A stretch of 64,000 nucleotides of DNA, taken from contig NC_049982.1 in NCBI RefSeq assembly GCF_000003815.2, forward strand, positions 1,083,604 to 1,147,603. Reading direction: 5' to 3'. The stretch's first letter is position 1. Each line of letters starts with the position of its first letter. A program made the translations under genes and the position numbers. Shown here piece after piece: positions 19,150 to 57,500 of this stretch. This DNA is from Branchiostoma floridae (Eukaryota; Chordata; Leptocardii; Amphioxiformes; Branchiostomatidae). The notes beneath the pieces are model-generated. The model was not told where the DNA came from. It ran no database searches and was given only the letters and a program-made list of their open reading frames with translations.

Positions 19150-20560
19150 GGCAGCCCTAACGCGCGGAGTGTGTCGTGAAGGTTCACTAATAAACCATAC
19201 ATTGATGACAGCCCTAACGCGCAGAGTGAGTCGTGAAGGTTCACTAATAAACCATCATTAATGACAGCCCTAACGCGCAGAGTGAGTCGTGAAGGTTCAC
19301 TAATAAACCTTCATTAATGACAGCCCTAACGCGCAGAGTGAGTCGTGAAGGTTCACTAATAAACCATCATTAATGACAGCCCTAACGCGCAGAGTGAGTC
19401 GTGAAGCTTCACTAATAAACCATCATTAATGACAGCCCTAAAGAGCAGAGTGAGTCGTGAAGGTTCACTAATAAACCATCATTAATGACAGCCGTAACGC
19501 GCAGAGTGAGTCGTGAAGGTTCACTAATAAACCATCATTAATGACAGCCCTAACGCGCAGAGTGAGTCGTGAAGGTTCACTAATAAACCATCATTAATGA
19601 CAGCCCTAACGCGCAGAGTGAGTCGTGAAGGTTCACTAATAAACCTTCATTAATGACAGCCCTAACGCGCGGAGTGAGTCGTGAAGGTTCACTAATAAAC
19701 CATCATTAATGACAGCCGTAACGCGCGGAGTGAGTCGTGAAGGTTCACTAATAAACCACCATTAATGACAGCCCTAACGCGCAGAGTGAGTCGCTGCGGT
19801 TCACTAATAAACCATCATTAATGACAGCCCTAACGCGCAGAGTGAGTCGTGACGGTTCACTAATAAACCATCATTAATGACAGCCCTAACGCGCAGAGTG
19901 AGTCGTGAAGGTTCACTAATAAACCATCATTAATGACAGCCGTAACGCGCGGAGTGAGTCGTGAAGTTTCACTAATAAACCATCATTAATGACAGCCCTA
20001 ACGCGCAGAGTGAGTCGCTGCGGTTCACTAATGAACCACCATTAATGACAGCCCTAACGCGCAGAGTGAGTCGTGAAGGTTCACTAATAAACCATCATTA
20101 ATGACAGCCCTAACGCGCAGAGTGAGTCGTGAAGGTTCACTAATAAACCGTCATTAATGCCAGCCCTAACGCGCAGAGTGAGTCGCTGCGGTTCACTAAT
20201 AAACCATCATTAATGCCAGCCCTAACGCGCAGAGTGAGTCGTGAAGGTTCACTAATAAACCATCATTAATGACAGCCCTAACGCGCAGAGTGTGTCGTGA
20301 AGGTTCACTAATAAACCATCATTAATGCCAGCCCTAACGCGCAGAGTGAGTCGTGAAGGTTCACTAATAAACCATCATTAATGACAGCCCTAACGCGCAG
20401 AGTGAGTCGTGAAGGTTCACTAATAAACCATCATTAATGACAGCCCTAACGCGCAGAGTGAGTCGTGAAGGTTCACTAATAAACCATCATTAATGACAGC
20501 CCTAACGCGCAGAGTGAGTCGTGAAGGTTCACTAATAAACCATCATTAATGACAGCCCTA
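19150..20560 (+). repeat. 56-bp minisatellite, about 25 copies with exact period
   Basis: The unit starts GACAGCCCTAACGCGCAGAG and ends with TTCACTAATAAACC plus ATCATTAAT. Unit starts fall at 19207, 19263, 19319, 19375 and so on to 20551, which is exactly 24 periods of 56 bp without one indel. Only the first unit (from 19150) is one base longer. Point variants (CCCTAA/CCGTAA, CAGAG/CGGAG, GTGAAGG/GCTGCGG, GACAGCC/GCCAGCC) are scattered and shared between non-adjacent units, which points to exchange between units. 56 is not a multiple of three and no coding function is apparent. Confidence 0.95.
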
Positions 20561-34618: not shown

Positions 34619-35968
34619 CAACCACACACACACACAGCCAACACACACACATTGTGTAGCAGTGCCCTCTAGCAGTTTCAACATGAACTTACCCATCTGT
34701 ACTTCTTGATGAAGGACCCAGGATTGAGGCAGACCTTGTCCCCCTCCAAACCCGCCACTCTCTTACAGATGAAGATGTTTGGGTTGGTGGGGGATCTGGC
34801 GATCACTACATCACCCCTGGAGAGACACACAAGAAATTTCAGTGAGTTATCGCATTTGGGAGGTCAGGTGTTCGAATCCCGCCTGGGTCATGCCAAAGAC
34901 TTGAAAATGGTTACAGACTGCATTTCTGCTTAACACTCAGCACTTACCTGAAGCTGTGTGTGAAAGAGTACAGATCAGGATGTCATTGAGTTTTCTTTGT
35001 TTTGACATTCACAAACTGGTGAAAAAGCTGAGTGACAGAAATATGTCTTTCTGATGTCTTAAAGCCAATATTGATACAGAATGCTTGTCATACCCGAAAC
35101 AGCCCTTCCATGGACATTGAGTGAGTGAGTGAGTGATTGCTTCCATTTAGGGCAGGGAATTTTTTTAACTTTTACGTGTCTTTATGAAATTTAACCAGGT
35201 TTCATATCAAGAATGAAAGTACACTATCTACAAAATAATGACAAGGAGAAATAAATATCTTAACACCATAGACCATGATGAATATGAGATTTTCTATGTC
35301 TTCAGGCATATCGAATATGTACTAGTATGTTTGTTTCCATGACAGAGGCTAAAGACTTACACATTCACAGTCTTCATCATGACACTGAACTTCTCTGTGA
35401 TGAGGACGTCCTGGGTGTGGATGGTCGGCTCCATGGAGGGGCCTGAACACTGCGGAAACAAAGGACCCAAAGGGTATGCATGGGGGTTTCAGGCTCCCTT
35501 TATAAAACCACATTTAGCTTAACATTTCTCCATCAATACTCCACTGTTGTTGATAATGTGTTTGATTCTCATACCTTGTAGTCCACCTAATAGGTATTCA
35601 TGCCAATGATTCATACATTAAGTAAACACTAAGACCAGACTGATATCTTTGATCAATCCGTTCACTCCAAGAGGGACCCCTTTTCTTTTCAATATTAAAG
35701 AGAAGTGTATGGTTTCTTGAAGTGTGGCTTTCCTCAAAACACTGAACTTCTCACTGGACTTCTCAGGCTTAACCTTAAGAGGACATGCCTAACTGAAGCT
35801 AGTACTAATTTTCACCTGAGTTGAGCAAGGGGATTGAGAAAAACTGCTTACCACAATAAAATCAGCTGCGTACTCCAGGGTGCAGTGAGCGATGCAGCCG
35901 TACTGCACAGCATAGCCGACCACGGCAGCAGCCTTCCACACGGCAGCTCGCAGTCCTCCGGAGAACAT
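33969..35968 (-). CDS. IMMP1L: IMMP1L, mitochondrial inner membrane protease subunit 1
   Basis: Signal-peptidase-I-type serine protease. In animals and yeast this subunit works with IMMP2L on the intermembrane-space face of the inner membrane and removes sorting peptides from imported proteins. Coding exons (minus strand) are 35852-35968, 35361-35449, 34693-34816 and 33969-34121, all with GT-AG borders and consistent phases, joining to 160 residues (human about 166). The N-terminal 39 residues carry the [13 protein letters not shown] membrane segment. Exon 2 carries the catalytic serine in SGPSMEPTI. Exon 3 carries GDVVIA and the catalytic lysine in [12 protein letters not shown]. Exon 4 carries [17 protein letters not shown] and ends with TAA at 33971-33969. 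The C-terminal tail after KVVFKVI differs from vertebrates. It is head-to-head with ANKS3. The first coding exon is the seed of a nine-copy array. Identification is by family motifs and is firm. Confidence 0.93.
34417..34651. repeat. (CA)n microsatellite in IMMP1L intron
   Basis: A long imperfect CA run with GCACA and ACAGACA interruptions, between IMMP1L coding exons 3 and 4. The overlapping His/Thr-rich ORFs are by-products. Confidence 0.95.
34846..34932 (+). mobile_element. tRNA-derived SINE, family 3, partial
   Basis: B box GTGTTCGAATCCCGC (34868-34882) with the body 'gggtcatgccaaagacttga', a relative of the minus-strand copy at 21400-21500. The A box is decayed. Confidence 0.5.
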
Positions 35969-36012
35969 CCTGATATCAGACTGCAGTGTCGCTATCTGGC
36001 AACCATAGCGGT
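35852..36012 (-). other. IMMP1L: IMMP1L first coding exon, functional copy
   Basis: The acceptor CTCGACAG ends at 36013. About 44 nt of 5' UTR, the ATG at 35968-35966, 39 codons and a GTAAGC donor at 35851-35846 follow. This is the only one of nine related copies that continues past the VQY codon into [10 protein letters not shown] and has a donor. Confidence 0.85.
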
Positions 36013-37300
36013 CTGTCGAGGCAAAGAGAAAACATTATTAATCATTGTTAACATCGTACTGCACGACATAGTCGACCACTGCCACAGCCTTCCACACGGC
36101 TGCCCGCAGGCCCGAGAACATCCTGATATCAGACTGCAGTGTCGCTATCTGGCAACCATAGCGGTCTGCTGAGGCAAAGAGAAAACATTATTAATCATTG
36201 ATAACATCGTACTGCACAGCATAGCCGACCACGGCTGCAGCCTTCCACACGGCTGCTCGCAGTCCTCCAGAGAACATCCTGATATCAGACTGCAGCCCCA
36301 CTATCTGGCAACCATGCCGGTCTGTTGAGGCAAAGAGAAAACATGATGAATCATTGTTAACATCGTACTGCACAGCATAGCCAACCACGGCAGCAGCCTT
36401 CCACACGGCTGCCCGCAGTCCTCCAAACATCCTGATATCAGACTGCAGTGTCGCTATCTGGTAACCATAGCGGTCTGTTGAGGCAAAGAGAAAACATGAT
36501 TAATCATTGTTAACATCGTACTGCACAGCATAGCCGACCACGGCAGCAGCCTTCCACACGGCTGCCCGCAGTCCTCCAGAGAACATCCTGATATCAGACT
36601 GCAGTGTCGCTATCTGGCAACCATACCGGTCTGTTGAGCCAAAGAGAGAAGCAATAAAAAAAATGATTAATCATTGTTAACATCGTACTGCACAGCATAG
36701 CCGACCACGGCAGCAGCCTTCCACACGGCTGCTCGCAGTCCTCCAGAGAACATCTTGATATCAGACTGCAGTGTCGCTATCTGGTAACCATAGCGGTCTG
36801 TTGAGGCAAAGAGAAAACATGATTAATCATTGTTAACATCGTACTGCACAGCATAGCCGACCACGGCAGCAGCCTTCCACACGGCTGCCCGCAGTCCTCC
36901 AGAGAACATCCTGATATCAGACTGCAGTGTCGCTATCTGGCAACCATACCGGTCTGTTGAGCCAAAGAGAGAAGCAATAAAAAAAATGATTAATCATTGT
37001 TAACATCGTACTGCACAGCATAGCCGACCACGGCAGCAGCCTTCCACACGGCTGCCTCCAGAGAACATCCTGATATCAGACTGCAGTGTCGCTATCGGGC
37101 AACCATACCGGTCTGTTGAGGCAAAGAGAAAACATTATTAATAATTGTTAATATGGTAAGTACTGCATGTAGCATAGTCAACCACTGCCGCAGCCTTCAA
37201 GTTCCACACAGCTGCCCATAGTCTGGAGGAGAACATCCTGATATCAGACTGCAGCCCCGCTATCTGGCAACCATGCCGGTCTGTTGAGGCAAAGAGAGAA
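36013..37300 (-). repeat. Eight decoy copies of the IMMP1L first coding exon, about 155-bp unit
   Basis: Each unit has the pyrimidine tract and acceptor (TTTGCCTC-ACAG), the 5' UTR, the ATG and up to 23 codons ([19 protein letters not shown] and on to VQY). It then jumps directly into the intron of the next unit (GATGTTAACAATGATTAAT), without a donor. Copies sit at about 36120, 36275, 36430, 36585, 36752, 36905, 37075 and 37240. The two outermost are the most diverged: one lacks part of the first codons, and one has a CTTGAA insertion. Frames read through several units, so the minus-strand ORFs here are not independent genes. Confidence 0.9.
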
Positions 37301-38415
37301 AATGTGATTAATGAGAAGTTTATTTGCAAGTTCATGCCCCGAGGCTAATTGCAAGTACATGGACCAGTATAAACATAGGAGACATACAAGTGGCAATGAA
37401 CAGTGATAAACATTATTGTGAAAAGAGGCTACTTGATTACTAGTGTTGGCTATTTCTATCATTGTTAACAATTTGCGTAAGGCCAAGTTTGGAGTTGATG
37501 TGATACTGGATTGATCCCTTTACAGCTGGGAGCTTGCAGTCGTACGGCATCATGTGACCAGTGGTAAGTGGCTGATGAAATCCTAAAGGATTCCGCCTCG
37601 TGCAACCCTATGGAGTACCCTATGCTGTACACTTACCTTGTAACATACAATGTGTATCAGCTTCAAACTAACAAACAGTTGGATATGACGACATAGAATC
37701 TAAACAAGGCAAAGTTTTCTGCTTTCGGATGTGTAATTCGTTGGAAAGCCGGTGTAAGTTGTAACTCCCTTTATCAACCGTGGGAACGCCTTTCTGGCAG
37801 GTTACATAACAACTCAAACTTTGCATATTAAACCAACTCCAGGCCTTCAACACAACCAACCTTCTTTGTCTTCTCGTGTCATCACTACACTTTTCTGACT
37901 ACAACCTACATCGTATATGTTACACTCTTTTAATAAGCTGAGGAGTACTTTACGAGCTCCATTCTATAATGGTTTAAATGGTTTGTGTAGGGGAAATTTC
38001 CAAACACGTCTAATTCCGCTTGGGGACTTTAAAAACTGGTACATGAATAATCACCAAACGAAGTGCCACTCTAGGACTAAATCATATTGCATGCATGTCA
38101 CAGAATATTAAAGAGGGTATAGTTAAGTTTGTTGAATAAAGAATCTAAAGAGAGAAGAGGTTCCAGGTTCCAACTGGAGTGACATACTCCTATATTTAAC
38201 TAGTCTACTCTGCTCTTGTTCTATCCCCTACCTTACCCCCATCCCCCATGTCCCCTTACCTTTGTAATCAACAATGGCTAACGTTATCAGCCAGTGGGAT
38301 ACCGCGTTTCTGTTACCAAACGTTTGCGATGGAAAACAGCTCTCCAACTAACATATGGTGGCGGGCAGGACATTAAAACAGGACAGGGAACAGCAGAAAA
38401 CACAAACGTGGGAAA
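37301..38415. promoter_or_regulatory. Intergenic interval between IMMP1L and ANKS3, presumed divergent promoter
   Basis: The IMMP1L first coding exon needs at least one upstream non-coding exon because it begins with an acceptor. ANKS3 must start before 39.5 kb. The transcription start regions of both therefore fall in or near 37.5-38.5 kb. No TATA box with clear placement is visible. The part from about 38300 to 38530 is less AT-rich with several CpG. Short ORFs here are not supported. Confidence 0.4.
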
Positions 38416-38517
38416 ATGTCGTCTGCAGTGACCTCTGGTGACTTCTCGGGAGGTCAACAGTCAAAGGTCATATCATTTACCCGTCATCCACCGCGGCACA
38501 ACATGGCAGGCGATCAG
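38416..38517 (+). other. Candidate ANKS3 5' leader exon with upstream ORF
   Basis: An ATG at 38416 opens 34 codons ending ...HNMAGDQ exactly at a CAG/GTATGT donor (38518). The next good acceptor is TTTTGCAG at 39175. Joined there, the frame stops after 13 more codons, before the ANKS3 start. It is thus more likely a 5' UTR exon with an upstream ORF than the true N-terminus. Confidence 0.3.
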
Positions 38518-39217
38518 GTATGTATGGAGCCCGCTTTGGTGTTATTGATTAAAAACGCGATAATTATGGCAATTATGACGGAGTTTTCATAGTTTTTAAT
38601 TAATAAGAAGCAAATTTGTGTATGAGGTAAGTTTCCAGGTGTCGAGGGATTTGTATAAGTCGTTTACCGCAGTGCGGAAAGGTGGTTTCATGTCTGAGAA
38701 TTTTTGTGCCGCCGACAAAAGACCTGAGTTTGATTGATAGTCAGTCAGGTATGTCCAGGTATGTGCCCGGATTAACGGTAGTGCGGCAGGGAAGGTGGGC
38801 GGCAGGAAATGTGCGGCTGGAGGCGAGGGGGTGACTCATTGGCGCATTGCTTTTAGAAGTTGTTAGAGTAAAGAAAATCGTGTATAGGGTATGCAGGAAT
38901 ACTGTATGTATGGCTCACGTATATTACTAACAAATAAGTAATAATTTATGGGGTAAAGAAACCTTTTGCTCCGTAACGTTGAATAACTTATGGATTGCCA
39001 AAATTCTAGAAGTAACACCAAGTTTCAGTGCGACACATGTTTGCTTTTCTACTGTACATTTTTGCAAAAGAATGAAAGGAGAAATGATAACGAATGTCTG
39101 AAGTTGTTTCTTTAAAAGTTGGCTTTGGGTCACAGCTCTATCAATTACTAGCTCTGACTTCCTTCTGTTTTGCAGGTTTTACATCTTCCCAGACTGCCAG
39201 TTGAAGCACAGCTATAA

Positions 39218-39512
39218 ATCCTGTGAGGACCAATCCACAGCTTGGGTTACATGCACGTGTAGGGACCAATCCACAGCTCAGGTTACATGCTCGTGTAGGC
39301 ACCAATCCACAGATCAGATTTCATGCACTTGTAAGGACCAATCCACAGATCAGGTTACATGCTCGTGTAGAGTCCAATCACATCACAGATCGGGTTACAT
39401 CCATGTATGTGTAGGGACCAATCCACAGATCAGGTTACATGCACGTGTAGGCACCAATCACAGATGTACGTGTAGGGACCAATCCGCAGATCGTGTTACA
39501 TGCAGGTGTAGA
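39218..39512 (+). repeat. 36-bp minisatellite in the ANKS3 leader, about eight copies
   Basis: The unit 'accaatccacagatcaggtt' plus 'acatgcacgtgtaggg' repeats with some length variants. It lies between the acceptor at 39175 and the ANKS3 start codon, so it is probably transcribed as 5' UTR. The Cys-rich ORF 39201-39527 is its translation. Confidence 0.85.
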
Positions 39513-39523
39513 GTCCATTCAGG

Positions 39524-42500
39524 ATGAGTTGCACAGAACACGTGGAGTATCCCTACGAGGCCAGTGATGAGGCCAGTGAGAATGAGCTGCTGGACCGCAG
39601 CCTCTCCATGTGGCGCGGGTGGGGCTCCCTCAACACGGACACCGACGGGTTCGACCCCATCCCCATCGACCTGCACACCGCATCCTCCATCGGACAGTAT
39701 GATACGGTACATTGTACTTCTACACAACTCTTTTCTATAGAATAATAAACAAAAGGTAGACAAGTTTCTTTTTGATTTGAACATGGCACGACAAGAAACT
39801 ATGGACTTTGAGAAGATGGACTGATATTATGTCGACTTTTTTGATTATGAAATGTTGAAAAACTTGAATTGTATTCTTTCTGTGTATATTAACTATTGCA
39901 AAGGCAAGACCTCTGACCTCCACCATCCTTAAGTTAAAATCTTGAAAAGCGGCTTAGGCTGAAGATGTATCAAGGTTTAAAAAAAGGTCAGCAAAAACAA
40001 AACTGTACGGCACAATGTTCAGGAACAAAGTTAGAGACCTTACCCTTGTGTGTCTAGTGATGGTGGTGCAAACAAATAAGCAAATAAACAAAAAACGGTA
40101 CATGGCAACAACAAAAAACAACAACAGTGGTGATGATATACAATGCCACACTAGATATAATCCCCTTTCTTTTACAGCTGCTTAGAGCTAGGGGAGCCAT
40201 TATAAGTTCTTGGCCACCCAAACTTTGAAATGTTCTGTTGTCTTGGCTTTTACTAGGTGTTGTGCTAACTTGTAGTAATGGGTTCCATTCTGTGACTGTT
40301 TTAGGTACGTGCCATTGTCCAATCTGGGAAGCAGGACCTGGATAAGAAGAACCACGGTAGCTGGACGCCACTGATGTATGCGTGTTACATCGGACATGAC
40401 AACATTGTTAACCTGCTGCTGGACGCTGGGGTGGACGTCAACCTGAAGTCTGCAAAGGTTGGACATTTGTTAAGAGCAAGTTAGACACAGAGTCACTTCC
40501 TAGATAGTATAGAGACTCATCCTTTCTGTACTTTGTCAAAGTCTTAAACAGCTAAACACTGCTATGAATTTTGCTAAAATTTTGGTCATCATTTTATCTT
40601 TTTGTCGTTTTTTCTATGTAATTAGGGGTGGGTACTAGTAGAGAAATTCAGGCCCAGGTACAGTCCAGGTCCAGAGGATCAGGTCCGGACCTAAACCTGT
40701 ATGTGAATGGATGGTACTCAAAACAATGGTCCATATCGCTACAAAGGAATCTGTTGGTGGAGTATCATATCTTCACATAAACAAGTCTGTTAAGTTAGAC
40801 CAAGTTTGACTATCAACTCTCCTCTACTTCACTCTTGTAATTTTCTTGGACCAATAACACGTGAACACCTGCCGTGTCAGTTTAATCTGTTCATTTTCTG
40901 ATCGGACCAACATCCAGTTTTTCTGGACCGGACAAATCACTCCAACAAGAAAAAACGATTTTGTACAACATACCAGTGCCCACCCCTATGTGTAATATGT
41001 TTATAGTAAGTAATTTTTAAAAGATACTTAGTTTTATTAAGTGTGCGTATCAATAAATATATGTATGTAAAAGAGTGTTCAATTCACCCAACTGACTGCA
41101 AAGGTTTTAAGGAAGTTATGTGATTAAAAATTCTTTCCTTTATAAATTCAAAGGGCCAGACGCCGCTGATCCTTGCCGCTAGCTGTGGGAACGAAAGCGT
41201 GGCGTACTTCTTGTTGCAGCAGGGCGCTGACCTCACGGGAAAGGACCGGAGAGGCTGGTCAGCACTGTTCCACGCAACTAACGCTGGACACCAGAACATG
41301 GTGAGACTTAGAGTATGGTGAAGTTTGTTTTTTATCTCACGGGGAAGGACAGAAGAGGCTGGTCTGCACTGTTCCATGCCACCAACGCAGGGCACCAGAA
41401 CATGGTGAGACTTAGACTAGTTAGTTAGAGTATGGTGAAGATTGTTTTTTATCTCACGGGGATGGACAGGAGAGGCTGGTCGGCACTGTTCCATGCCACT
41501 AACGCTGGGCACCAGAACATGGTAAGGGCATGGTGAAGTTTCTGTTTTCTGCATTCATTCATTCTACTTAAACAAGGGCTTAATAAAGCTTAAAGGAATG
41601 AAAATTTACTTGAGTAAACTTCTACTTTTTAGTCTAAGTTTCTACTTTTGAATATGCCAATTCTGGGTAGCAAAGCTACAAGCTTTAAGGGCCCATTTGA
41701 ATTTACTGGCATGGCCTGATGTATTCAAATCTGTGTGAGTTCTGTATTGACTTTTTTTGGTAACAGTGTACATGTACCCACAAGTATAATTGCCTTCTTG
41801 ATAAAGGTTCCATAGGTGAAATTGATATAAAATCGTTAATGTACATTTTGCCCAAACAAACAGGTGAAGTTCCTGTTGGAGGAGGGGGCAGACACAGAGT
41901 CCCGCGAGCCGACCCTGGGTCTCACACCGCTGTGCCTGGCTGCAGGGGAGGGTCACGAGATCATCGTACAGACGCTGCTTGATCACGGAGCCAACGTCAA
42001 CGCACAGGTATCATCTCCAGTGTACAAAATATTTTTCTGAGCCAGGTTGCTCAGTGTGCAACATGGAGAAAAAACTAGGTTGCACAACTGAATTTCAAGT
42101 TGCACCACCTACAATTCTTTATTTTCTGAAAAAAAAGGTACAATACATACATACATCATAACCTTTTACTATCATATTCAGCAATTACTGACATGATTGG
42201 CTATATGAAATGGAGCTGCCTCAGTCCATTTATTTCTTCCAAGTAAATTGACAACAAAATCGAGTTCTCGGGCACAAAATCTACGTTGCGCCCTGTGCAA
42301 CCTGAGTCTAAAAGTAAGTTGCACCAAGCAAAAAGTGGTTGCAATGTGCAAGTGGGTATTTTGCACGCTGATCTCTCTCCAATATATTAGGCCTACAGCA
42401 ACTCAATGACACCATTGCATACATTATATTCTTTACTGCTACAAGAGTCTGCATCGCAGAATATCTTTGAGATAGTCCCCGTTTTCATTCATTCATTGCA

Positions 42501-45500
42501 CAGCTAGTTTCTTTTAATTGATACAACAGTAACTTGTTTTGTTCACATTTACTTAAAATTTCTGTTACCCATTTCGTATTTATGTATGCATGCATGCATG
42601 TGTGTGTGTGTGTGTCGACATCACGTTTTTACTCTTGTTTTATATTTATGTTTTAAATAGCTTTACATACTTTAAGTATATAGAAAATTATGTGCATCCT
42701 GCCCAATGCTCATCAAAATATGTGAATAACATCAATTTGAATAAGATCAAAACTGTGAATTCGCAGAGCTACAATGGGGACACTCCGCGCATGCTGGCCC
42801 TCATCAACGGCCACTCCAAGATTGTGGGGCTGATCGACACATTCACCGCGCAGCCCGGCACAAGTCTCCGTGCTGCGCCAGGATTGGGTGACAATAACGA
42901 TGACCTCAGCTCCTCCGACGAGTTCAGGGGTCACAGGAAGCCTCCCCGCAGCCACCACCACCGCAGCTCGCGCGCCCGCCGGACACCCAGCATACGGGAC
43001 GGGCCCGCCGAGTTCGCCCGCAAGACGGGTATTCCTGTCCAACCTCAGCAGGTAACTAACATCCACACGTAGCTTACAAGACGGGAATTCCTGTCCAACC
43101 TCAACAGGTAACTAACATCTGCACCTAGCTTACAAGACTGGGATTCCTGTCCAACCTCAACAGGTAACTAACATCTGCACCTAGCTTACAAGACTGGGAT
43201 TCCTGTCCAACCTCAACAGGTAACTAACATCCACACTTAGCTTACAAGACGGGAATACCTGTCCAACCTCAACAGGTAACTAACATCCACACTTAGCTTA
43301 CAAGACGGGAATTCCTGTCCAACCTCAACAGGTAACTAACATCCACACTTAGCTTACAAGACAGGAATTCCTGTCCAACCTCAACACTGGTAACTAACAT
43401 TCACACTTAGCTTACAAGACGGGAATTCCTGTCCAACCTCAGCAGGTTAACCACATTCACACTTACATGTAGCTCTACAATGAAGTTGTTTTCCAAATTT
43501 GCCTTCAAGCTATCAAAGAAAAATTAAAGCCAACAATGTCTAATTTCTTATTAACTTTTTAAGGCGCCTGGACGCATGCCTGGCTAAAAGCTTTCAAAGC
43601 TTTTAGCCAGGCATTGGTAATATTTTAATTTGTAGACTTTAGGCTTGTCTATCTGTTATTTGTTATACAAAAAGTTGTTTGGTTGGTCTACTTTCACAGA
43701 AGGGTAGTATGTGTCATCAGCCCCACCCCCCATCCACCAAACCTATGGTCCAGAAGCCTGTGCAGTCTGGTTGTGCCCAGTGGTTATGTGATGTACCAGG
43801 ACAAGCGGTGGGGATGATGGAGAAGTGCTCTCTATTGATCCCTATTTCATTCATCCATTCATTCCTGTCTACACCTACAGAAGGGTAAGGCGTCCCAGCC
43901 TCCGTCCACCAAACCCGCGGCGCAGACCCCCGCGGTGCCAAGCAGCCCGGGCGTGCCCAGCGGTTATGTCACGTTCCAGGACGAGTGGGCCGGGGAACGG
44001 GAGGAGGGTGAAATCCGATTCCGTGACGTAATCTCCCCCATCAACGTCAGCGAACATGACCTGGACAGCTCAGGGGGACGCCAGGAGGTTTGTTTGTTTT
44101 TGTTTATTTCTTTGTTTGTTTGTGGGCCGGGGAGCGGGAGGAGGGTGAAATCCGATTCCGCGATGTCATCTCCCCAATCAACGTCAGCGAACACGACCTG
44201 GACAGCTCAGGGGGACGCCAGGAGGTTTGTTTGTTTTTGTTTATTTCTTTGTTTGTTTGTGGGCCGGGGAGCGGGAGGAGGGTGAAATCCGATTCCGTGA
44301 TGTCATCTCCCCAATCATCGTCAGCGAACACGACCTGGACAGCTCAGGGGGACGCCAGGAGGTTTGTTTGTTTTTGTTTATTTCTTTGTTTGTGGGCCGG
44401 GGAGCGGGAGGAGGGTGAAATCCGATTCCGCGATGTCATCTCCCCAATCATCGTCAGCGAACACGACCTGGACAGCTCAGGGGGACGCCAGGAGGTTTGT
44501 TTGTTTGTTTGTTTGTTTGTGCCTTCACTCTCCTCAAAGCCCTGGCCATCAAGAGCAGCAGCAGCAGCGGAAGGCTGTGAGCAGGGTTGTAGCCAGCGCC
44601 CGTCCTTCCGTCCTTTGACGGAATTTTGCAGCTGGGGACGGAAAAATATTTTGCCCATTCCGTCCTCTGTGACGGAGAAAATCGATATGTAAAGATACAA
44701 CAAAAACTAAAAATCGTGCAAAGATCTCCAAAAATTAAAAGGATTTTTTCACAGCGCCGGGGCAGGGGTCCGCATTTCAGGCTATTCAGAAGGCTTATTT
44801 TATCAGGTTTTTAGGGCCATATCTACGATAATAGTAGCAGTCACTTAACTTCTTTTCAGTTTGACATAACAATATTTCAAGTCAAAGCGTCAAAGTCAAC
44901 TAAAAACTCGTAATCAACAAACTTTACTCAGCTCAACAGTAACGTTAACTATTGTCCGGTTTGCCATCCGAAGTTGAAGCTCTTATTTATAGCGCTAGTA
45001 TCTTCGATGCGCCGTTAGCCGCTGTGCCGTGCGACTGTTTTTGACGGTCTTACATCCCTAAGTTGCCGCTTTGCTGTCAGACGATATACCAACGGACATG
45101 TTTCAAGAAAAATACCCGGCAAAACCATTGTTCCGCATCAGATTCTATTCTATAAAACATGTGGGTTACAGTCTGATAAATATTTTGTAGAAGCACCGCT
45201 GTGGGAAAGTGCAAGGAATAATCACGTAGCATACGAAGTTCGCTGTCAACTGTCACACGACTGTTTGAAACTCTAACCAACAGCCGCGGCCTTTGATGAA
45301 GTCGGCGAAAAGGTGCACTGCCTTTGCAACAAGGAAGCCGACGGTCTCATGGTGGGCGGGGCCACATGACGAGGCTTGCCCCGGCCCCGAAAGGAAATGC
45401 CCGGGTTTTACATACAAACTTACGGTGGCTTGTACTTTACCTTGCCGAACCAAAGAGCTTCAAATTTAGAACAGGAAATTTGGGAACGCGACCCGCCCTT

Positions 45501-48500
45501 GCTCTAGAAATGTGTCAGAGAGAATTGATTTTATTTTCCGCGCTGAAAAAGAAATGACGCAACTAATAGTAAGAGCCTATGTGATCAACCCCGCTCCCCA
45601 TATAAGGAGATTCCCGGGAAAATCTGGCTGTTCCGGGGAGGGATCCCACCCCGCTATAATAGGACCGCGCCGGATCAAACCGTGGGCGATTCTTTCAAGT
45701 GGTTCGTTGTACATGCTCGCCGACTCGCCGTCTATGTTTCCAATCTTTGTAAAGTGTTAAAATGCTACTTACCTCATTAAGATGAACTGACAGATGAAGT
45801 GTGTTGTGTTAATCGACGGTTTCTCTCATCGGCGATGGTAGGAATCGACGTGAACTTTGATACGACTTAACTAAGTAAGACGCAAACGGCCGTTGTTGAA
45901 AATGTTTTATTCTCGCCGATGTGAGGGCGCCGTTATCCCTTGTATGTGCTATTGTGCTTGTGTATATTTCTCGTAGGACGTAGATACATAATAAATTTTT
46001 GTTGTACTAAACGTGCTGTTTCTTTTCTGTGTAAATTCTATACAATATAGAAGTGCAGCTGTGTAACACGCTTACAATCTTACCCTCATACCAGCAATCT
46101 GTGCGATCACTGCGGTGGCGGTAGCATCGGCCCCTTTCCTAAATAAAATCCAGCGTAAAACCCTCGTGTAATTTCTTTTACCAAAACAGATGTATTAACA
46201 GCTCAAAATGCTGGAAATAGCGTTTCAGAGGGTCTAGATTTCAAAATTTTCCGGGGGAGCATGCCCCCCGACCCCCCTAGGAACGTCGCGCCTTCGGCGC
46301 GACATCTCGCGCCTACGGCGCTCGATAGGATTTTCAGTAAAAAGTTGGGGGACGGAAAATGATTTCGGGCTGGCTACAACCCTGGCTGTGAGGCTTATTT
46401 TGCCTACTTAACAAATAATCTCAGTGGACCTTATAGAGCTTCTAAACAACATCCAGTGTGCCAAGTACCATCCTGTGTTTGAGGACCAGGACATTGACCT
46501 GCACGTGTTTCTCACACTCACTGATAATGACCTCAAGGAACAGACTGTTTTTAAATCAAGTTCCATTTTAAACCAATTGTAGTGAAATGGACATTTGTTT
46601 TGAGTATCGCCCATGCACAACTTTTTACAGATAATTAGGTTCAGGTCCTAACCTGGACCGTACCCGTACCTGAATTTTCTGTACCAGTACCCACCCCTAT
46701 AGTACCATCATAGATAAGCTTTTATGTTAATAGAGGACCATCTTGCTATCCTACTCCAGGGTGCTGACCCAGCTAACACACTGGATGAACATTGTGCCTT
46801 CGCTCTCTCCAACGCCCTGACCATCGTCTTATAGCGTACATTTGTAACAGGCCACCACAATATACAATATACAATCTATGCTTATAGAATACCACCATGC
46901 TATACTGTTCTAGGCGGCCGACCCAGCGAACACGCTGGATGAACAGTGTGCCTTCGCCCTCTCCAACGCAATAGGCATAACACACTGCTTTTGTACAGTA
47001 AGAACAACCTGCATGCGATAAGACCACACTGATAGGTTAACCACGAGTCCACCCTCCCATCCTGCTCCAGGGTGCTGACCCAGCACACACTCTGGACGAA
47101 CAGTGTGCCTTCGCTCTCTCCAACGCCCTGACCATCGTCTTTTAGCGTACATTTATAACAGGCCACCACACTATACAATATACAATATACATTTATGCTA
47201 ATAGAATACCACCTTGCTATCCTGTTCCAGGTGGCTGACCCAGCAAACACGCTGGATGAACAGTGTGCCTTTGCCCTCTCCAATGCCCTGACCATCGTCT
47301 TTTAGCGTACATTTGTAACAGGCCACTGCACTATACAATATACTGCTAATAGAAGACCATCTTGCCATCCTGTTCCAGACGGCTGACCCAGCGAACACGC
47401 TGGACGAATAGTGTGCCTTCACCCTCTCCAACGCCCTGACCATCATCTTTTAGCGTGCATTTATAACAGGCCACTGCACCATACAATATACTTTTATGCT
47501 AATAGAATACCACCTTGCTATCCTGTTCTAGGCGGCCGATCCAGCGAACACGCTGGATGAACAGTGTGCCTTTGCCCTCTCCAATGCTCTGACCATCGTC
47601 TTTTAGCGTACATTTGTAACAGGCCACAGCACTATACAATATACAATATGCTAATAGAAGACCACCTTGCTATCCTACTCCAGTGTCACTTTCACTTTAT
47701 TTATTTTACCAGTAATTACATCTCAGGCCGGAATTCGGCCTGCTTTCCAGGTAATCCTGGACATAAAAGTACAAAGTACACATAGCACATATACAATACA
47801 TAATAAAATTATCCAATATCAAAGTCCAGACTACGGAGCATCAGCCAGATCAAGTTCTAATTCTCAATGAACTTCTTAAAAGTCCTGAGGCTGAGCAATT
47901 GCCGTTGCTTTAGCGGTAGTGAATTCCAGAGGAAAGGTCCGTAGGACTGTAGACTGTTTCGAAATGCAATGACTCTTGCTGGTGGACAGCAGAGTAGGTG
48001 AGGGTCATAGTCCCTTAGACGTTTTACCTCTGACCGAGTAGGGCGTACACTCATTGTTGGTGGAGCCTCCCACTTGAACAAAGATGCCAAGTACGCCGGC
48101 GCCTTTCCATGAATTGTCTTAAAGACAGTAACAAGAGTCGTAATTTCTGTCCGTTTACGCACAGAGTCTATCCCTGCCTCTGCTCTCAAGTTGTCGACTG
48201 TCACGTGGTCTCGGAGTTTGTGTCCTGTGATGAGCCTTGCAGCCCTGTTTACCAGTCTATCCAGCTGTATTTAAACATAAGAGTTTTGTTGCCTTGTGCA
48301 AGGCTTGGTAGCCATGCTGTGGCGCAATACTCCAGATGAGCCAGTAATAGTGTCTGATACATGGTTTTCAGCACTTCGTCCGTAACAAAGGTTCTGGCAC
48401 GTCCCATTGCTCCAAGTCCGCTAAGAAGCTTCTTCGTGATTTTTTGTACATGTGCTGACAAAAATGCTGACCCAGCAGACACGCTGGACAAACAGTGTGT

Positions 48501-51500
48501 CTTCGCTCTCTCCAATGCCCTGACCATCGTCTTTTAGCGTACATATGTAACAGGCCACCGCAATATACAATATACTTCTATGCTAATAGAAGACCATCTT
48601 GCCATCCTGCTCTAGGAGGGTGATCCAGCGAACACGCTAGACGAACAGTGTACCTTCGCTCTCTCCAACGCCCAACACACTGACAGTCTGGTTTTGTACA
48701 GTGAGAACAACCTGCATAAGACCAAACTTATAGGTTTGATCCACTCATAATGGGAAGGGCCCCTACATGTAAGTCCATAACCCTAACCACAGTCCACCTT
48801 GCTGCTCCGGGTGGCTGATCCAGCGAACACACTGGATGAACAGTGTGCCTTCACCCTCTCCAACGCCCTGACCATCGTCTTTTAGCGTACATTTGTAGCA
48901 GGCCACCACACTATACAATATACAATCTAATAATAATAATTGCTTATAGAAGACTACCTTTCTATCCTAAGGCTGTTGCAGGCGGCTGACCCAGCTAACA
49001 CACTAGATGAACAGTGTGCCTTCGCCCTCTCCAATGCCCTGACTGTACCAGTACCTGAATTTTCTGTACCCACCCCTAGTACCATCACAGATAAGCTAAT
49101 AGAAGACCACCTTGCTATCCTGTTCTAGGTGGCTGACCCAGCGAACACCCTGGATGAACAGTGTGCCTTCGCTCTCTCCAACGCCCTGACCATTGTCTTT
49201 TAGCGTACATTTGTAACAGGCCATCACACTATACAATATACTTTTATGCTAATAGAAGACCACCATGCTATCCTGTTCAAGGTGGCTGACCCAGCGAACA
49301 CGCTGGATGAACAGTGTGCCTTCGCCCTCTCCAACGCCCTGACCATTGTCTTTTAGCGTACATTTGTAACACCTGGCGACCACACTATACAATATGCTTG
49401 ACGTATGCTAATAGAAGACCATCTTGCTATCCTGTTCTAGGTGGCTGACCCAGCGAACACGCTGGATGAACAGTGTGCCTTCGCTCTCTCCAATGCCCTG
49501 ACCATCGTCTTTTAGCGTACATTTGTAACAGGCCACCACACTATACAATATACTAGACGTATGCTTATAGAATACCGCCTTGCTATCCTGTTCTAGGTGG
49601 CTGACCCAGCTAGCACGCTAGATGAACAGTGTGCCTTCACTCTCTCTAACGCCCTGACCATCGTCTTTTAGCGTACATTTGTAACAGGCCACCACACTAT
49701 ACAATATACTAGACGTATGCTTATAGAATACCGCCTTGCTATCCTGTTCCAGGTTGCTGACCCAGCGAACACGCTGGATGAACAGTGTGCCTTCGCTCTC
49801 TCCAACGCCCCGACCATTGTCTTTTAGCGTACGTTTGTAACAGGCCACCGCACTATACAATATACTTTTATGCTAATAGAAGACCACCTTGCCATCCTAC
49901 TCCAGGGGTGTGATCCAACGAACACGCTAGATAAACAGTGTGCCTTCGCTCTCTCCAACGCCCAACACACTGACAGTCTGGTTTTGTACAGTGAGAACAA
50001 CCTGCATAAGACCAAACTTATAGGTTTGATCCACTCCTGATAATGGGAAGGGCCCCTACATGTAAGTCCACAACCCTAACCACAGACCACCTTGCTGCTC
50101 CAGGGTGCTGACCCAGTGAACACGCTGGATGAACAGTGTGACTTCGCTCTCTCCAACGCCCTGACTGCACCAGTACCTGAATTTTCTGTACCCACCCCTA
50201 GTACCATCACAGATAAGCTAATAGAAGACCACTGTTATCCTGTTCCAGACGGCTGACCCAGCAAACACGCTGGATGAACAGTGTGCCTTCGCTCTGTCCA
50301 ACGTCTTGACTGTACCAGTACCTGAACCAGTACCACCCCTAGTACCATCACAGATAAGCTAATAGAAGTCTCTTGCTATCCTGTTGCAGGTGGCTGACCC
50401 AGCTAACACCCTGGATGAACAGTGTGCCTTCGCTCTCTCCAACGCCCTGACCATCGTCTTTTAGCTTACATTTGTAACAGGCCACCACACTATACAATAT
50501 ACGTGACATAATGCTAATAGAAGACCACCTTGCTATCCTACTCCAGGGTGCTGACCCAGCAAACACGCTGGACAAACAGTGTGTCTTCGCTCTCTCCAAT
50601 GCCCTGACCATTGTCTTTTAGCGTGCATTTATAACAGGCCACAACACTATACAATATACTTTTATGCTAATAGAATACCACCTTGCTATACTGTTCTAGG
50701 CGGCTGACCCAGCGAACACGCTGGATGAACAGTGTGCCTTCGCCCTCTCCAATGCCCTGACCATCGTCTTTTAGCGTACATTTGTAACAGGCCACCACAC
50801 TATACAATATACTAGATGTATGCTAATAGAATACCGCCTTGCTATCCTGTTCCAGGTGGCTGACCCAGCAAACACGCTAGATAAACAGTGTGCCTTTGCT
50901 CTCTCCAACGCCCAACACACTGACAGTCTGGTTTTGTACAGTAAGAACAACATGCATAACACCAAACTTATAGGTTTGATCCACTCATAATGGGAAGGGC
51001 CCCTACATGTAAGTCCACAACCCTAACCGCAGACCACCTTGCTGCTCCAGGGTGCCGACCCAGCAAACACGCTGGATGAACAGTGTGCCTTCGCCCTCTC
51101 CAATGCACTGACTGTACCAGTACCTGAATTTTCTGTACCCACCCCTAGTACCATCACAGATAAGCTAATAGAAGTCTCTTGCCATCCTGCTCTAGGCTGC
51201 TGACCCAGCGAACACCTTGGATGAACAGTGTGCCTTCGCTCTCTCCAATGCCCTGACCATCAAGAGCAGCAGCAGCAGCAGTGGGGACCTGGAGAAGGCT
51301 CTGGGGCTGAACCAGGAGAAACAGCCGGCCACTCAGCAGCCTTCCTGGCACCAGGCAAGAACTGTCATTGTTCTTAATCTCTAAGCAGATCCTACAGTAG
51401 CATAAGATAGTATCAAAAGCTGGCAGAGAAGTGAAGCCGGCTTAGGAGTGTGTTTCTCTGACTACACTCCTTGGCCAGTTTGGTTGGTACTATCTTATGC

Positions 51501-54500
51501 CATCTTGGGATCTGCTTGGAAATTAATAGTTCTACATGTAGCTGGTGTCTTTTAGCATAACAGGCTACCACACTATAAGTTGTGACCACCACACTAAAGG
51601 AGGACCAATGATGCTGATTTTTAACTACTAGTAGTGTCCCTTGTATTCACTTGTGGAACAATGTCTGATCTATATGATGCCCAAACAATCGGACTAGTGG
51701 ACTTGTCCAACCCTGCATTTACTGACATTGTTTCACTCCCTCAGGTGTACCAGCAGCCCCCTCAGGCCCCCCGCGCCATGCCCGACCCCCCACCGGAAGT
51801 GCTGCCTCCCTTACCTGCCAACATCCCCGCACCTGTCCCCGACACTGAGGGGAGTACTGAGGTATGGTCTGGATTTTGTACTGCGATGTTTTATCCATGA
51901 CATGATGTTTGATGCATGGTTTGAATCTTTTATGTAACATAAGGTTTGTCAACCTTTGTAGCACTTATACAATGTACATGTACTTCATAATCATCAACTA
52001 CATGTTGTTTGGCAGATCTAGCTGTATGTAGAATTTAGTGTATAAAAGTACTACTATTGCAGGTGTACCAGCTCCTGAATAACCTACTGGAGCTTCTGAA
52101 CAACATCCAAGTGTGTCCCACCCTGTGTTCACACAAAACTAACTTTTACTACTACAATATGTACATGTACTACTACAGGTTTACCAGCCCCCAAAGGACC
52201 TAATGGAACTGCTAAACAACATCCAGTGTGCCAAGTACCACCCTGTGTTCACTCAAAACTAAGTATCACTACAACATATTGTACATGTACTACTACAGGT
52301 TTACCAGCCCCCTAAGGACCTAATGGAACTGCTAAACAACATCCAGTGTGCCAAGTACCATCCTGTGTTTGAGGACCAGGACATTGATCTGCACGTGTTC
52401 CTCACACTGACTGATAATGATCTCAAGGAGGTGAGGGGGAAAAACTACACTTCTGTTTCCATTACAATCAATCAATCAATCAATCTGTTTGCAAATTGGC
52501 TAGACAGTTATGATAGAACCTGAGTGTAGTTTGTACTAGATCTATATTAACCTACATGTATAAACCTATTTTATCAGCAAGTTCTCTGTCACACCATTCT
52601 GGATTTGTTTCACATTGCACTGTGTTTCTTCCAATATTGCATAGCCTAGAATCTACATTATACTTTATAGGTAGTTGTCTTAATACAATTATTTGCCTTA
52701 CATTGTGCCCATTTTACAATTGTTGTGCAATAAAATTTGACTTGACTTGACTTGTATGTAGTTAAATACAATACAAACCCCTACTAGCAGACACTGCATA
52801 TTGTTAATCCATAGCTGTATGTCTTACAGCCCAAACACTAAAGGTAAAATTGCGCAATGTTTATAACAGTGTCTTACAGTTAAAAACACTTCACAATACT
52901 TCTTAGGACAAATATGTATGGAAAAACTTTTGTTAACACAAATTTTCAAAAATTGTTTTCCTTTACATTTCAGATTGGCATCAAGCTGATGGGCCCGCGG
53001 CGTAAGATGACGTCGGCGATCGCCCGTTACCACAGCCACGCCCGGTTACACATGACGGGTCCGGAGCACGCCTATGCAGACAAGCTGGAGAGTGAGATGC
53101 AGGAGCTGGCCATGCAACTGCACAGGGTAACTAATACTGTCCATTTAATGTCATACCTGTGACGTGAAAACGTTCGATATGGGTGTTCCGGACCGGGGCG
53201 TACGCTTCCGTATCGCACAGGTTCGAAAGGCGTATCACACAGGCTCCATTCGAATAAATCGAACTGTTTCGAGCGGGCCGGTTGGCAATTCGAATACCTG
53301 ATTCGGACGTTGGAACATTGCCTTTGGCCGTCGGGCGATCCGACCCGCGGTCGGTCTGATACCTTGGGTGATGCGGAATACACCGTGTTGTATTCTATAT
53401 GTACTCAACCGACATTCAAATATCTTGTGATGCTATCCTGTAATGCGTAAATTGCCATGCAGCTACACAATGTACACAGGGTGTGTATGCAGGGTTCTCT
53501 CCTGCGCAGTTGAACATAGGGGGCCCATACATGTACATGTTTGCTATTATATGTATTGCAAAAAGGCAATACAATGGACAGCGCATAGAGTATGTAGTAC
53601 ATGTAACTAACAAGCTAAGAAAAGCTAATACATCTGAACAAGAAGCCCCAGCTCCCTTATCAGAAGGTGCATCAGGCCAGCACCCATCTCCGCTTCTAAG
53701 CCCTGGGGCCACACATACATGTAGGTGCGAGCGCTACAGCAGGGGGCTAGTAGTGTAGTGTGTTTAGCTTCCATACTCTTCCTCTTATCAGAGAAAGAAG
53801 TAGGTTAGGTAATTATTGTTCCAGGTTTCAGGTGTCAACACACCTGTTTGTCGCAGGTGTATCAGTTGTTATCACACCTGTTTGTTCCAGGTGCATCAGG
53901 TACTAACACCTCTGTGTGTTTTATCCAGGTGTATGCGCAGGCAGAGCAGCTGAAGCAACAGGTGCTACAGGAGCATGAGCTGCGAAAGGTGGTGGAGGGA
54001 TGTGTGGTGGAGAACAAGGCTGCCTGGGACCGCGTCAGACAGGTTTGTTTGGATCTTTACAGTAGTACATAACTCAAAGTGTTACACACATTCTGTACTG
54101 TAGAGTTTGTAAGTTAGAGCAGGCTGCATGGTGGAGGGATGTCTGATGGAGGACAAGGCTGCCTGGCACTGCGTCAGACAGGTTTATTTGGATCTTTACA
54201 GTAGAATATAACTCAAAGTGTTACACACATTCTGTACTGTAGAGTATGTAAGTTAGAGCAGGCTACATGGTGGAGGGATGTCTGATGGAGAACAAGGCTG
54301 CCTGGGATCGAGTCAGACAGGTTTGTTTGGATCTTACTGTTACTAGCTGAGCAGTACATAACTCACATTCTGTGCCAGAGTTTGTAAGTTAGAGCAGGCT
54401 GCATGGTGGAGGGATGTCTGATGGAGGACAAGGCTGCCTGGCACTGCGTCAGACAGGTTTGTTGGATCTTATTGTAATACATGTTTCATGGTGTTTATAA

Positions 54501-57500
54501 GTGCAGACTACGTAAGGAAATGATGTGATGTAGGGCTGTTTCGTGGGAGAAAGCCCCCCGGATGCTGATATTACAATTGACAAGCTTTACTGGTACTGCA
54601 TCCGACAGGTTTGTTTGGATCTTATTGCGTCTTAGTGCATATTGATCCAATGTTTTGAGCATTTGGCCTGTACCCCTAGCCTTGCTACGAGGGGCATTCA
54701 ATAAGTAATGTCCCTGACCCATTTCCCATAGCAGGAGATTAATGAAACTTGGCACAGTTATTAGTCTTTCTCTTCATAAGAACCACCCAGAGTTTTGCAT
54801 TTCTCCCATCATTTGATGTAGCTCTGGACACCGTTCTTGTAGGACATCCCAGGTTGGTCCTCCGACAGATGCCTCATCAATGGCAGAAGAGGAACGACCA
54901 GGTCTGGGAGCTGTTTCCACAGACTTCCGACCTTGTTTGAATTCAGGATGCCAGCGTTTTACAAGGTCATATGATGGGGCATCATCACCATAAGTTTTTT
55001 TCATTTCATAAAAAGTCCCCTTTGGTGTGCGTCCTTTCAAATACAAAAACCGGATCACTGCGCGACACTCAACTTGCTCCATTTCACACCTGGTCCATTT
55101 CACACCTGACTCAGTTCAAACACCAGTAAATCAGTAACCACAATTAGTTCAGAGCTGTTTTTTGCAACATAAGCCATAGAGATATGACTCATTACACATG
55201 CAAAATTGCATCTAGATCAGACAACTGGGAATGGGTCAGGGGCATTACTTATTGAATGCCCCTCGTACATGTGTAAGTGTTGTGGTATTTTTCAATGAGC
55301 TCAATGTTCTCTTTGAAGATAAATGCGTTTCCAGCATTAATAGCTAGACTGGACCTTATGACCTTGACATGGTGTTGCTAACCGCTGCCCTGCCCCACCC
55401 CAGGTTGCCACGGAGACCCGTGAGCTGTGCAGCGATGTGCGACTGCTGGTGCACCAGGTCAGGATGTGTCAGGACGAGTTCTCCCGGAAACTCCTGCCTG
55501 AGGCAGACAGTGGTGAGTCATTCATGATCCTCACACAAATCATTCTCCAACACAGCCGTGGTAGGTCATAGGTCTTGAGGTCACGACCCCATAGGTCAGA
55601 GGTCACAACACTTTGTGTCAATTTTTTTTTTTTTTGGTATTTTAACTCCTTTAAGAGAAGCTGTCACATTTTTCATGTGACAGCTGAAGAAGTTTCACTT
55701 TGATCTTACCAAATTGAATAAACCAAAAATTGTGTTACCGGGCAGTAGACAGTAGTGAATTGGAAATCCCATCATACAGAACTTTTCTTAAAGAATGGTT
55801 TTTATTAAAGAAAACATACTCTCAAAATCCAACAATTGTGGCAGCCAGAAGGCTAGAATAATGTCGGACTTAACATCATTTTGAAATTAACGTACCGGTG
55901 AATAAAATTATCAATTACATTAAAAGGAAAGCATGATTAAAAGCAAACTGCTTGGCAAGATGCATGATAGTTTTAAACTTCGAGACGTTAGAACTAGTAC
56001 AATGTACAATCATTACATATACTGGTAACATGTCACAGCAATATAGAAGGCGCTTTCATTCAGTCCTGAATGTTAAAATGTTCATCAATTGGGTCATGTG
56101 GGGTATGGCACTGTTTCTGTAGTGGTCAGTTTTGCAGAGAGACAGCAGGCTGGTAAAGCTTGCTGATAACCTGACTCAAGTTTAATAGCTGTGAAATATG
56201 GAGACTTTGTCGTTCTTTATATCTGTGACTACCAGCTGTCCCTGTGGTGCCATGGCAACAGCACATGGGTTGTCCATGTCTGTAGTAATGTGTTTGAGGA
56301 ATCTTCCTGTGTTGTCAAACATCTCCACACGACTGTTTCCACTGTCTGCCACAATGATGTTACCTGCCCTGTCTGTATATATGCCACAGGGATAACCCAG
56401 CTGACCTTCACCACTTCCCTCACCTCCAAACTGGAACAGAAACTGTCCACCCTCGTTGTACACAAAAACACAGTGATTGTAACAGTCTGACACAAGAATA
56501 TTCCCTTTTCCATCCACAGTGGTGTACCGCGAGTACTTCATCCCCTGCAGCTGACCCACAGTTTGAACAATTGTCCCATCTGGCCTGAACACCAAAACTT
56601 CACCATGTAGGTTACTCACTAAATCTTGTGCCGTCGCTTTGGTGATGAGGATGTGGTTCCTCACGATGTCCATAGCAACTCCATGGTACCACTCGCGTGC
56701 CTGAATCTTCTTTTGTTCAAACTTCCTCAGCACCCTGCCCTGTTTGTTGTACTGCACAGCAAACGCAGCAGACTCTGTCTCCCCCACCACCCACAAGTTT
56801 CCCTCCGCGTCCATGGTCACGTCATTTGGGCACATCTTCTGTCCACCTGACACAACTGTTGGGAACTGGTGAACAAATGTTCCTTGCAGGGTGAAGACTT
56901 GGATTCTCTGGTTCCCCCCTTCTGCTACAAAGATCTCCCCTTCGTCCGACACTGTAACACCATTTGGATACTTGAACTCTCCTGTTCCAGAACCAGATGT
57001 ACCAAATGTCATCTGCAGATTATGAGACTGATGCCCTCCTTGCCTTTGGTTACCATAAAAATGTCCTTTGTAAAATGTACCAAATGTCATCCTCTCATCA
57101 TGAGACCAGGGCTCCCCTTGCCTTTGTTTAAGGCTCTCCTTGCGTTTTCCCTTGCCTTTGCCATAAGAATTTATTTTAATTCTTGCAGTTGCTGAAATGA
57201 TTGGTGCAGATAGGATTGTCACATGTCCCAATACTGCCACTGGGGTGTCTGTGGGCTGAAAGACAGCAGGCTGGGTTTGTACAGGAGTTGGTGCTGCTTT
57301 TCCTCTGTACTTTCCTACCACCTCTGTCAATGCAGTTTGCTGACTGAGAAACTCGATCCATCCCTGCTGCATTGCATGTTCTGCTCGATCACAGGCAGCA
57401 GACAGTTCATTGACATCTGCCAAAACTATGTCTCTCCCAGTCTGTATTTTCTCCAAGTTCTCGCTGTGATTTTGTTGTGATTGGGACAAGAGTTGGTCTT

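Follow-up and report, generated by a model that had tools for sequence, protein, structure and literature searches.

Why do exon–intron borders recur as tandem arrays, one border after another, in two adjacent genes, and what becomes of the surplus copies? This question is raised by a stretch of 64,000 nucleotides of the Branchiostoma floridae genome (assembly GCF_000003815.2, contig NC_049982.1, positions 1,083,604 to 1,147,603 of the forward strand), hereafter called the window, in which the genes ANKS3 and IMMP1L carry such arrays. In each array one copy is the real exon and the other copies, which we call decoys, lie beside it in the intron. Comparing both we found coding-like divergence of the decoys in five of the six ANKS3 arrays tested, and we consider it probable that these are minisatellites of the type known as mirages whose decoys, in these five arrays, keep swapping with the functional exon end.

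ANKS3 consists of twelve exons (39524-55512, forward strand) with a continuous frame of 634 amino acids, and the length of each of exons 1-11 is divisible by three. Its product matches the Ank repeats and the SAM domain of Pfam, and the human ANKS3 sequence aligns over most of its length. Upstream, on the reverse strand, lies IMMP1L with a match to the Peptidase_S26 domain. The exon borders were placed by tblastn with the human ANKS3 and IMMP1L sequences, by sequence reading and by the continuous frame. Arrays were located with Tandem Repeats Finder (TRF), and copies were counted with border probes, the real copy included.

A first-pass annotation of the window had listed seven arrays, each with a unit lying over one exon–intron border, and a complete exon at one edge of each array. 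TRF, border probes and sequence bear out both statements, the real exon being last in acceptor-type and first in donor-type arrays; an eighth array, the acceptor-type array of exon 11, was absent from that list (Table 1). The annotation had given copy numbers of 3 to 24 and periods of 56-155 bp. The probe counts 23 copies at exon 7, and TRF finds periods from 56 to ~156 bp in the seven listed arrays. Since a unit with one border leaves the other border of the exon in single copy, the complete exon necessarily stands at that edge of the array. The intact exon at the array edge is thus a geometric necessity and no separate clue. The mean pairwise difference between copies is 4-15% in the exon parts and 6-29% in the intron parts.

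Table 1. Border arrays of IMMP1L and ANKS3, the exons to which they belong and related fragments (positions in the window).
Feature	Position	Strand	Description	Basis
IMMP1L first coding exon, acceptor-type array	35899..37304	-	9 copies with the real one, ~156 bp	TRF, probes
IMMP1L, real first coding exon	35852-36012	-	low-coordinate end of array	
ANKS3 exon 3, donor-type array	41218..41524	+	3 copies, spacing 104-117 bp	TRF, probes
ANKS3, real exon 3	41154-41300	+	first in array	
ANKS3 exon 5, donor-type array	43021..43465	+	8 copies, 56 bp	TRF, probes
ANKS3, real exon 5	42767-43051	+	first in array	
ANKS3 exon 6, donor-type array	43985..44520	+	4 copies, ~137 bp	TRF, probes
ANKS3, real exon 6	43881-44087	+	first in array	
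ANKS3 exon 7, acceptor-type array	46719..51196	+	23 copies with the real one, ~153 bp, higher-order blocks	probe
ANKS3, real exon 7	51196-51354	+	last in array	
ANKS3 exon 9 (SAM), acceptor-type array	52062..52430	+	2 copies and a decayed one at ~52063	probe; decayed copy by eye
ANKS3 exon 9, copy	52179	+		TRF, probes, sequence
ANKS3, real exon 9	52299-52430	+		TRF, probes, sequence
ANKS3 exon 11, acceptor-type array	53828..53928	+	34-bp unit	TRF, sequence
ANKS3, real exon 11	53929-54042	+		
ANKS3 exon 11, donor-type array	53990..54613	+	139 bp, 5 copies: real end (54042) first, 3 clear, one decayed (54588)	
Decayed acceptor-type copy of ANKS3 exon 6, intron 5	~43699-43830	+		by eye
Lone fragment of exon 7 end, intron 6	~44519-44570	+	abuts exon 6 array	by eye
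Lone exon 9 (SAM) fragment, intron 6	46427-46540	+		tblastn match, sequence
Insertion splitting exon 7 array	47684..48464	-	reverse-transcriptase-like peptides	by eye

The arrays belong to a known kind of element and are real, not an isolated curiosity. The first-pass annotation had mentioned mirages at the amphioxus Adh locus, and this precedent exists: PMC3087553, which describes mirages in the globin genes BflGb6 and BflGb9, cites others in Adh3 and at two more loci, identified by its reference titles as retinol dehydrogenase and presenilin, and PMC3902484 adds PGBD5 and troponin C. As far as the available parts of these papers go, mirages resemble the present arrays in having tandem units over a 5′ or 3′ border (published units 10-160 bp), in keeping the authentic exon and in that many decoys keep AG or GT. 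In the seven listed arrays and in the exon 11 acceptor array every unit spans an exon–intron boundary, and either boundary may be duplicated, the acceptor in IMMP1L exon 1 and ANKS3 exons 7, 9 and 11, the donor in ANKS3 exons 3, 5, 6 and 11. The definition of mirages also comprises length instability (between haplotypes and somatic) and concerted evolution with the edge units excluded, and their copy number has been reported to differ between haplotypes (PMC3087553). The present arrays differ from the published descriptions in that seven to eight of them occur in ANKS3 plus its neighbour gene, in reaching 23 copies with higher-order blocks, and in that the decoys have been tested for coding-like divergence.

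For this test the real exon end was compared with the adjacent decoy in 17 arrays, one of which (L090) is without differences. The arrays outside the window come from an unselected sample of 148 exons matching the Pfam models for the myosin head, SNF (SLC6) and kinesin, some of them from close paralogues; kinesin L089 (three acceptor copies) and SLC6 L090 (two donor copies) were fetched deliberately in addition. In ANKS3 the ratios of synonymous to non-synonymous differences are 9:0 for exon 3, 6:0 for exon 6, 6:1 for exon 7 and 2:0 for both exon 5 and exon 9. Coding-like ratios are also found outside the window, in SLC6 L050 (4:0), SLC6 C5 (4:0) and kinesin L089 (4.5:1.5). Pooled over the 17 arrays, the proportions of synonymous (pS) and non-synonymous differences (pN) are 0.258 and 0.047, a ratio of 0.18, and the 21 exon 7 decoys give pS 0.361 and pN 0.039 when compared with the real exon 7. 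The intron parts of the window units show a mean divergence of 0.06-0.29, a range which overlaps pS. This coding-like divergence goes beyond the first-pass annotation.

A decoy which was copied once and then decayed should show a ratio of non-synonymous to synonymous divergence (dN/dS) of ~0.5, because constraint acts on the real lineage but not on that of the decoy. This static model, run with a transition bias of 4 and CpG mutation raised twofold, predicts 38.7 synonymous changes among the 88 differences of the 16 arrays that have any, whereas 54 were observed (P=0.0007; with a bias of 2 and no CpG effect P=0.00007). For the seven window arrays the synonymous share is 28 of 37 (P=0.00007). 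Copies within one array share history, so these P values are optimistic. CpG decay was rejected as the source of the third-position bias after trying three mutation models; the published CpG mutation excess in B. floridae is about twofold (PMC12862219). The mutation spectrum that we obtained from the intron parts and one other array has a transition bias of ~2 and zero CpG transitions, at merely 6 CpG positions. Changes common to at least two exon 7 copies are 14 synonymous and 6 non-synonymous, private ones 6 and 13; such statistics count distinct changes and depend on the choice of copies.

The exon 7 array also carries signs of exchange. The three-unit block that closes with the real exon has two further occurrences in the array, at 89-91% identity over ~412 nt, and the intron beside the real exon 7 has relatives at 90-96% identity over 77-88 nt beside the decoys at 46760, 49129, 50249 and 50390. 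In the tree of this array the real copy is nested among the decoys (support 0.73), in contrast to IMMP1L, where the edge copy at 37280 forms the longest branch. A separate observation concerns the donor-type copy of SLC6 L090 (1-1001), in which 78 exon bases are identical, third positions included, and the adjoining intron has diverged. The pattern looks as it might after a recent short conversion tract.

Which kind of exchange could keep dN/dS low was addressed by forward simulation (150 haplotypes, six copies, eight replicates per setting). One-way copying, within-haplotype exchange and exchange among decoys only gave average real-decoy dN/dS values of 0.43-0.72, and rare interallelic exchange gave 0.49-0.50. 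With frequent interallelic exchange that included the functional unit the ratio was 0.34 at N × r = 1.5, 0.18 at 4.5 and 0.04 at 15. The ranking was the same in a smaller first simulation with fewer replicates, which gave 0.39-0.47 for one-way copying, 0.43-0.85 for exchange within a haplotype and 0.03 for interallelic exchange at N × r = 7.5. As the simulated averages fit only interallelic exchange including the functional exon end, we favour exchange of this type.

Published parameters suggest that the necessary rate is feasible. The effective population size of B. floridae is ~1.7 million and its mutation rate 5.89e-9 (PMC12862219), and non-crossover conversion has a mean tract length of 99 bp and a paternal frequency of 96.1 events per 73.0 Mb per offspring (PMC12500494). 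From the latter values we calculate a conversion rate of ~1.3e-4 per site per generation, and by our own arithmetic N × r would fall into the required range if one or two per cent of the conversions in an array were out of register. From population size and mutation rate we likewise calculate a diversity of ~0.04. Multiplied by the number of copies, this value comes within about twofold of the pS between real exon end and adjacent decoy in exon 5, exon 6, IMMP1L and L050; it underestimates pS in exon 3 and overestimates it in exon 7.

We propose that the arrays would have arisen as ordinary tandem duplications whose unit covered one exon–intron border. With one splice site per unit, a single copy would connect to the remainder of the exon, leaving the others as decoys without an opposite site, which splicing could ignore and which would for this reason be tolerated. 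Unequal exchange or short-tract conversion between alleles would then interchange the functional exon end and its decoys. Every copy would recently have served as the working exon end and would have been purged of non-synonymous and splice-site changes, and synonymous changes would build up in a pool sized roughly as the number of copies times the number of alleles. That decoys and functional exon ends form one recombining pool is strongly suggested for ANKS3, and the data beyond this gene are suggestive. Whether border arrays are live recombination pools, in which the working exon end and the intron decoys continually replace each other, seems to us evenly balanced. If they are, untranslated DNA would be under protein-level constraint and coding sequence would be in concerted evolution with its own intron. 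Border arrays may for this reason also persist longer than purely intronic ones.

The splice dinucleotide is retained in 60 of the 62 decoys of 12 arrays, whereas the identity of the adjoining intron would predict 45.5; the count omits six sampled arrays, and L042 and L050 (9 decoys) were found by AG-containing patterns, which favours retention. One of the two losses, an exon 11 acceptor copy, in fact has AG at 53855-53856. Reading through the decoys led, in the cases tried, to in-frame stops for exons 3, 5, 7, 9 and 11 and kinesin L089, and to a frameshift for exon 6 and SLC6 L050, which makes it improbable that the decoys simply serve as alternative coding exons. Of the IMMP1L decoy frames six of seven end in or at the end of their own unit and the seventh in the next unit. 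The proposal in the first-pass annotation that selection tolerates only duplications leaving one intact exon is in part upheld: it fits the geometry, the stops and frameshifts on read-through and the published globin experiments, in which reverse-transcription PCR suggests that regular splicing is unaffected by mirages, as is also stated for Adh3 (PMC3087553). Two side observations belong here. Most IMMP1L decoys (36153-37300, reverse strand) keep an ATG and a frame of ~22-28 codons (one of 79), and such frames could act as upstream frames if they were retained in the mRNA. ANKS3 exon 7 apparently ends at a GC donor (CAG/GCAAGA, 51354-51356).

The simplest account of the anatomy is that the decoys are tolerated passenger duplications, copied once from the real exon and left to neutral decay. 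This account fits the old or two-copy cases, such as C12 (0:2), C7:324656 (4:7), C7:4205473 (1:3), kinesin C6 (2.5:5.5) and the exon 11 donor array (0:5, without a synonymous signal), and IMMP1L (3:3) comes close to what the static model predicts; SLC6 L042 has 4:4 and C7:6473 2:2. It is likewise not rejected by the nine non-window arrays with differences, eight sampled ones plus L089, taken together (26 of 51 synonymous, P=0.17). These counts speak against continual swapping, and so do several further points. Heterogeneity among arrays is strong (P=0.00002), and the rejection of the static model weakens to P=0.0115 with a bias of 4 and a tenfold CpG effect. Over seven arrays, shared and singleton changes (25:14 and 26:28) do not differ significantly (Fisher P=0.14). 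The lone exon 9 fragment in intron 6 has 7 synonymous and 1 non-synonymous changes over 37 codons, for which intra-array exchange is no direct explanation. Two sampled decoys outside the retention count have lost the donor (C5:24158943 and C7:324656, by eye). Single simulation replicates fall to 0.25 with one-way copying and to 0.21 with within-haplotype exchange, and owing to this scatter the pooled value carries the argument and a single array proves little. Finally, all data are DNA sequence from one assembled haplotype. Both live and dead arrays seem to exist. Passive decay, however, predicts a synonymous share of ~0.45, well below that of the window arrays and of all 16 arrays, and leaves the kept splice dinucleotides and the repeated blocks ending in the real exon unexplained. 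We regard it as an unlikely explanation.

If the decoys were translated, whether as cassette exons or as alternative exon ends, constraint on their own products would account directly for the synonymous divergence and the kept splice dinucleotides. Against this no opposite splice site was seen, read-through met stops or frameshifts in the cases tried, and the private changes of exon 7 are not coding-like, which makes translated decoys very unlikely; arrays of whole or alternative exons are rejected on the first two of these grounds. It is more improbable still that the arrays are an assembly artefact in a highly heterozygous genome. Repeat arrays are error-prone, and an early draft contained one of the published mirages in misassembled form (PMC3087553). 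Here, however, the copies are not identical, one array is interrupted by an insertion, and structures of this kind are present in other genes. Exon 5, the one exon searched, has a single match in the whole assembly, which also speaks against a paralogue or second haplotype as the source of the decoys. We return to swapping between decoys and the functional exon end as our preferred reading and turn to the clustering of the arrays, for which the first-pass annotation had suggested a mechanism preferring splice borders. Such a mutational mechanism, for example transcription-linked breaks, would be in line with ANKS3: of the TRF arrays lying between its start codon and exon 12, all seven whose unit measures at least 30 bp span a border. 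Two further TRF rows are left out of this count, a run of 4-bp units at 44495 within the exon 6 array and, within a mariner relic, a 16-bp duplication at 55078, with which it would be 7 of 8. In the null model the same unit lengths were placed randomly in the collapsed gene, whose intron lengths were entered manually, and just those placements survived that lay within an intron or covered a single border. Under this tolerated random placement 2.4 border arrays are expected (P(7 of 7)=3e-4, P(at least 6)=0.006), a post hoc test as the locus was chosen for being striking.

The unselected sample gives a different picture. Border-spanning local copies were found at 8 of 296 borders, at 2 of 148 exon midpoints and at 1.43% of the collapsed intron points. 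Pooled, 4.25 borders were expected and 8 seen (P=0.066), so that any preference across the genome is non-significant and no more than about twofold, and strong genome-wide targeting of splice borders is unsupported. The SLC6 family agrees with a targeting mechanism (7 of 134 borders vs 1.95% of intron points, P=0.017), but kinesins (1 of 50 vs 3.25%) and myosins (0 of 112 vs 0.26%) do not. When read, all eight sampled cases were partial exon copies across a border, one of them ~980 bp distant and not adjacent. By the method of the sample ANKS3 itself has 6 of 24 borders duplicated vs 10.8% of intron points, a percentage which includes the intron parts of border units; the 34-bp array is under the length limit of the method. 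The match tables of myosin, P450 and Cpn60, scanned by eye, contained no tandem partial copies (for P450 and Cpn60 the tables alone were used). Duplications confined to introns are common, and better persistence of border arrays could yield the same excess as targeting. A mechanism aimed at splice borders is consequently not established, and we consider it doubtful as the cause of the clustering. To sum up, border arrays are common in this genome and their rate differs strongly between genes, a preference for borders is unproven, and the clustering in ANKS3 is matched by none of the sampled genes, most of which were sampled in part only.

Several known systems share features with these arrays. 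The zinc fingers of PRDM9 are encoded by a minisatellite with allelic turnover by recombination, and all units are translated in frame. The border arrays would resemble it in the turnover between copies and alleles; unlike in PRDM9, the unit straddles a splice site and one copy is coding. They are not coding minisatellites with a unit inside one exon and in frame, as the units extend into introns and read-through gave stops or frameshifts in the cases tried. The chicken immunoglobulin V pseudogenes serve as a donor pool for gene conversion, and the decoys would likewise be untranslated copies able to replace an expressed segment. Here, however, neither programmed conversion nor diversity as its product is apparent, and the synonymous divergence suggests purging, not diversification. 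In Dscam-type mutually exclusive exons one of several tandem exon copies is used, and each copy has both splice sites. By contrast, the array sequences and the read-through cases indicate that the decoys carry one splice site only.

A literature search at the level of titles and abstracts of the best-ranked papers, with few subscription journals covered, found no genome-wide survey of border arrays and no report of coding-like decoy divergence; in the literature so covered mirages have been described gene by gene or family by family. By extrapolation from 8 of 296 borders, partial exon copies spanning a border may number thousands in the genome. Exchange of decoys with functional exon ends, if it occurs, would place noncoding repeats under protein-level constraint, and their low dN/dS could mislead gene finders into exon calls. 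Exon ends would gain recombination-driven variation. Mirages have also been proposed as a source of intron gain (PMC3087553), an idea which would gain a population mechanism.

Other repeats and elements were noted in the window. Two open reading frames of the insertion inside the exon 7 array were searched against Pfam with zero matches. Intron 6 contains an insertion of ~1.8 kb (44573-46392), situated between the lone fragments of exons 7 and 9, with the terminal inverted repeat CAGGGTTGTAGCCAG and a target duplication of 8-9 bp, GGCTGTGAG (by eye). The mariner-like relic in intron 11 (54689-55269) is an inverted-repeat element with a Mos1-type HTH_48 domain. Closely 5′ of the ANKS3 start codon TRF finds a 36-bp array of 6.4 copies (39227-39465), in a 5′ untranslated exon or its intron. 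Outside ANKS3 and IMMP1L there is a tandem repeat of 3.7 copies of 411 bp (15976-17450, TRF), and one long open reading frame on the reverse strand (56182-58128) encodes 648 amino acids with RING, B-box and NHL repeats, of the TRIM-NHL type. A further array (19148-20560, TRF) has 25 copies of a 56-bp unit containing the donor-like sequence CAGAGTGAGT.

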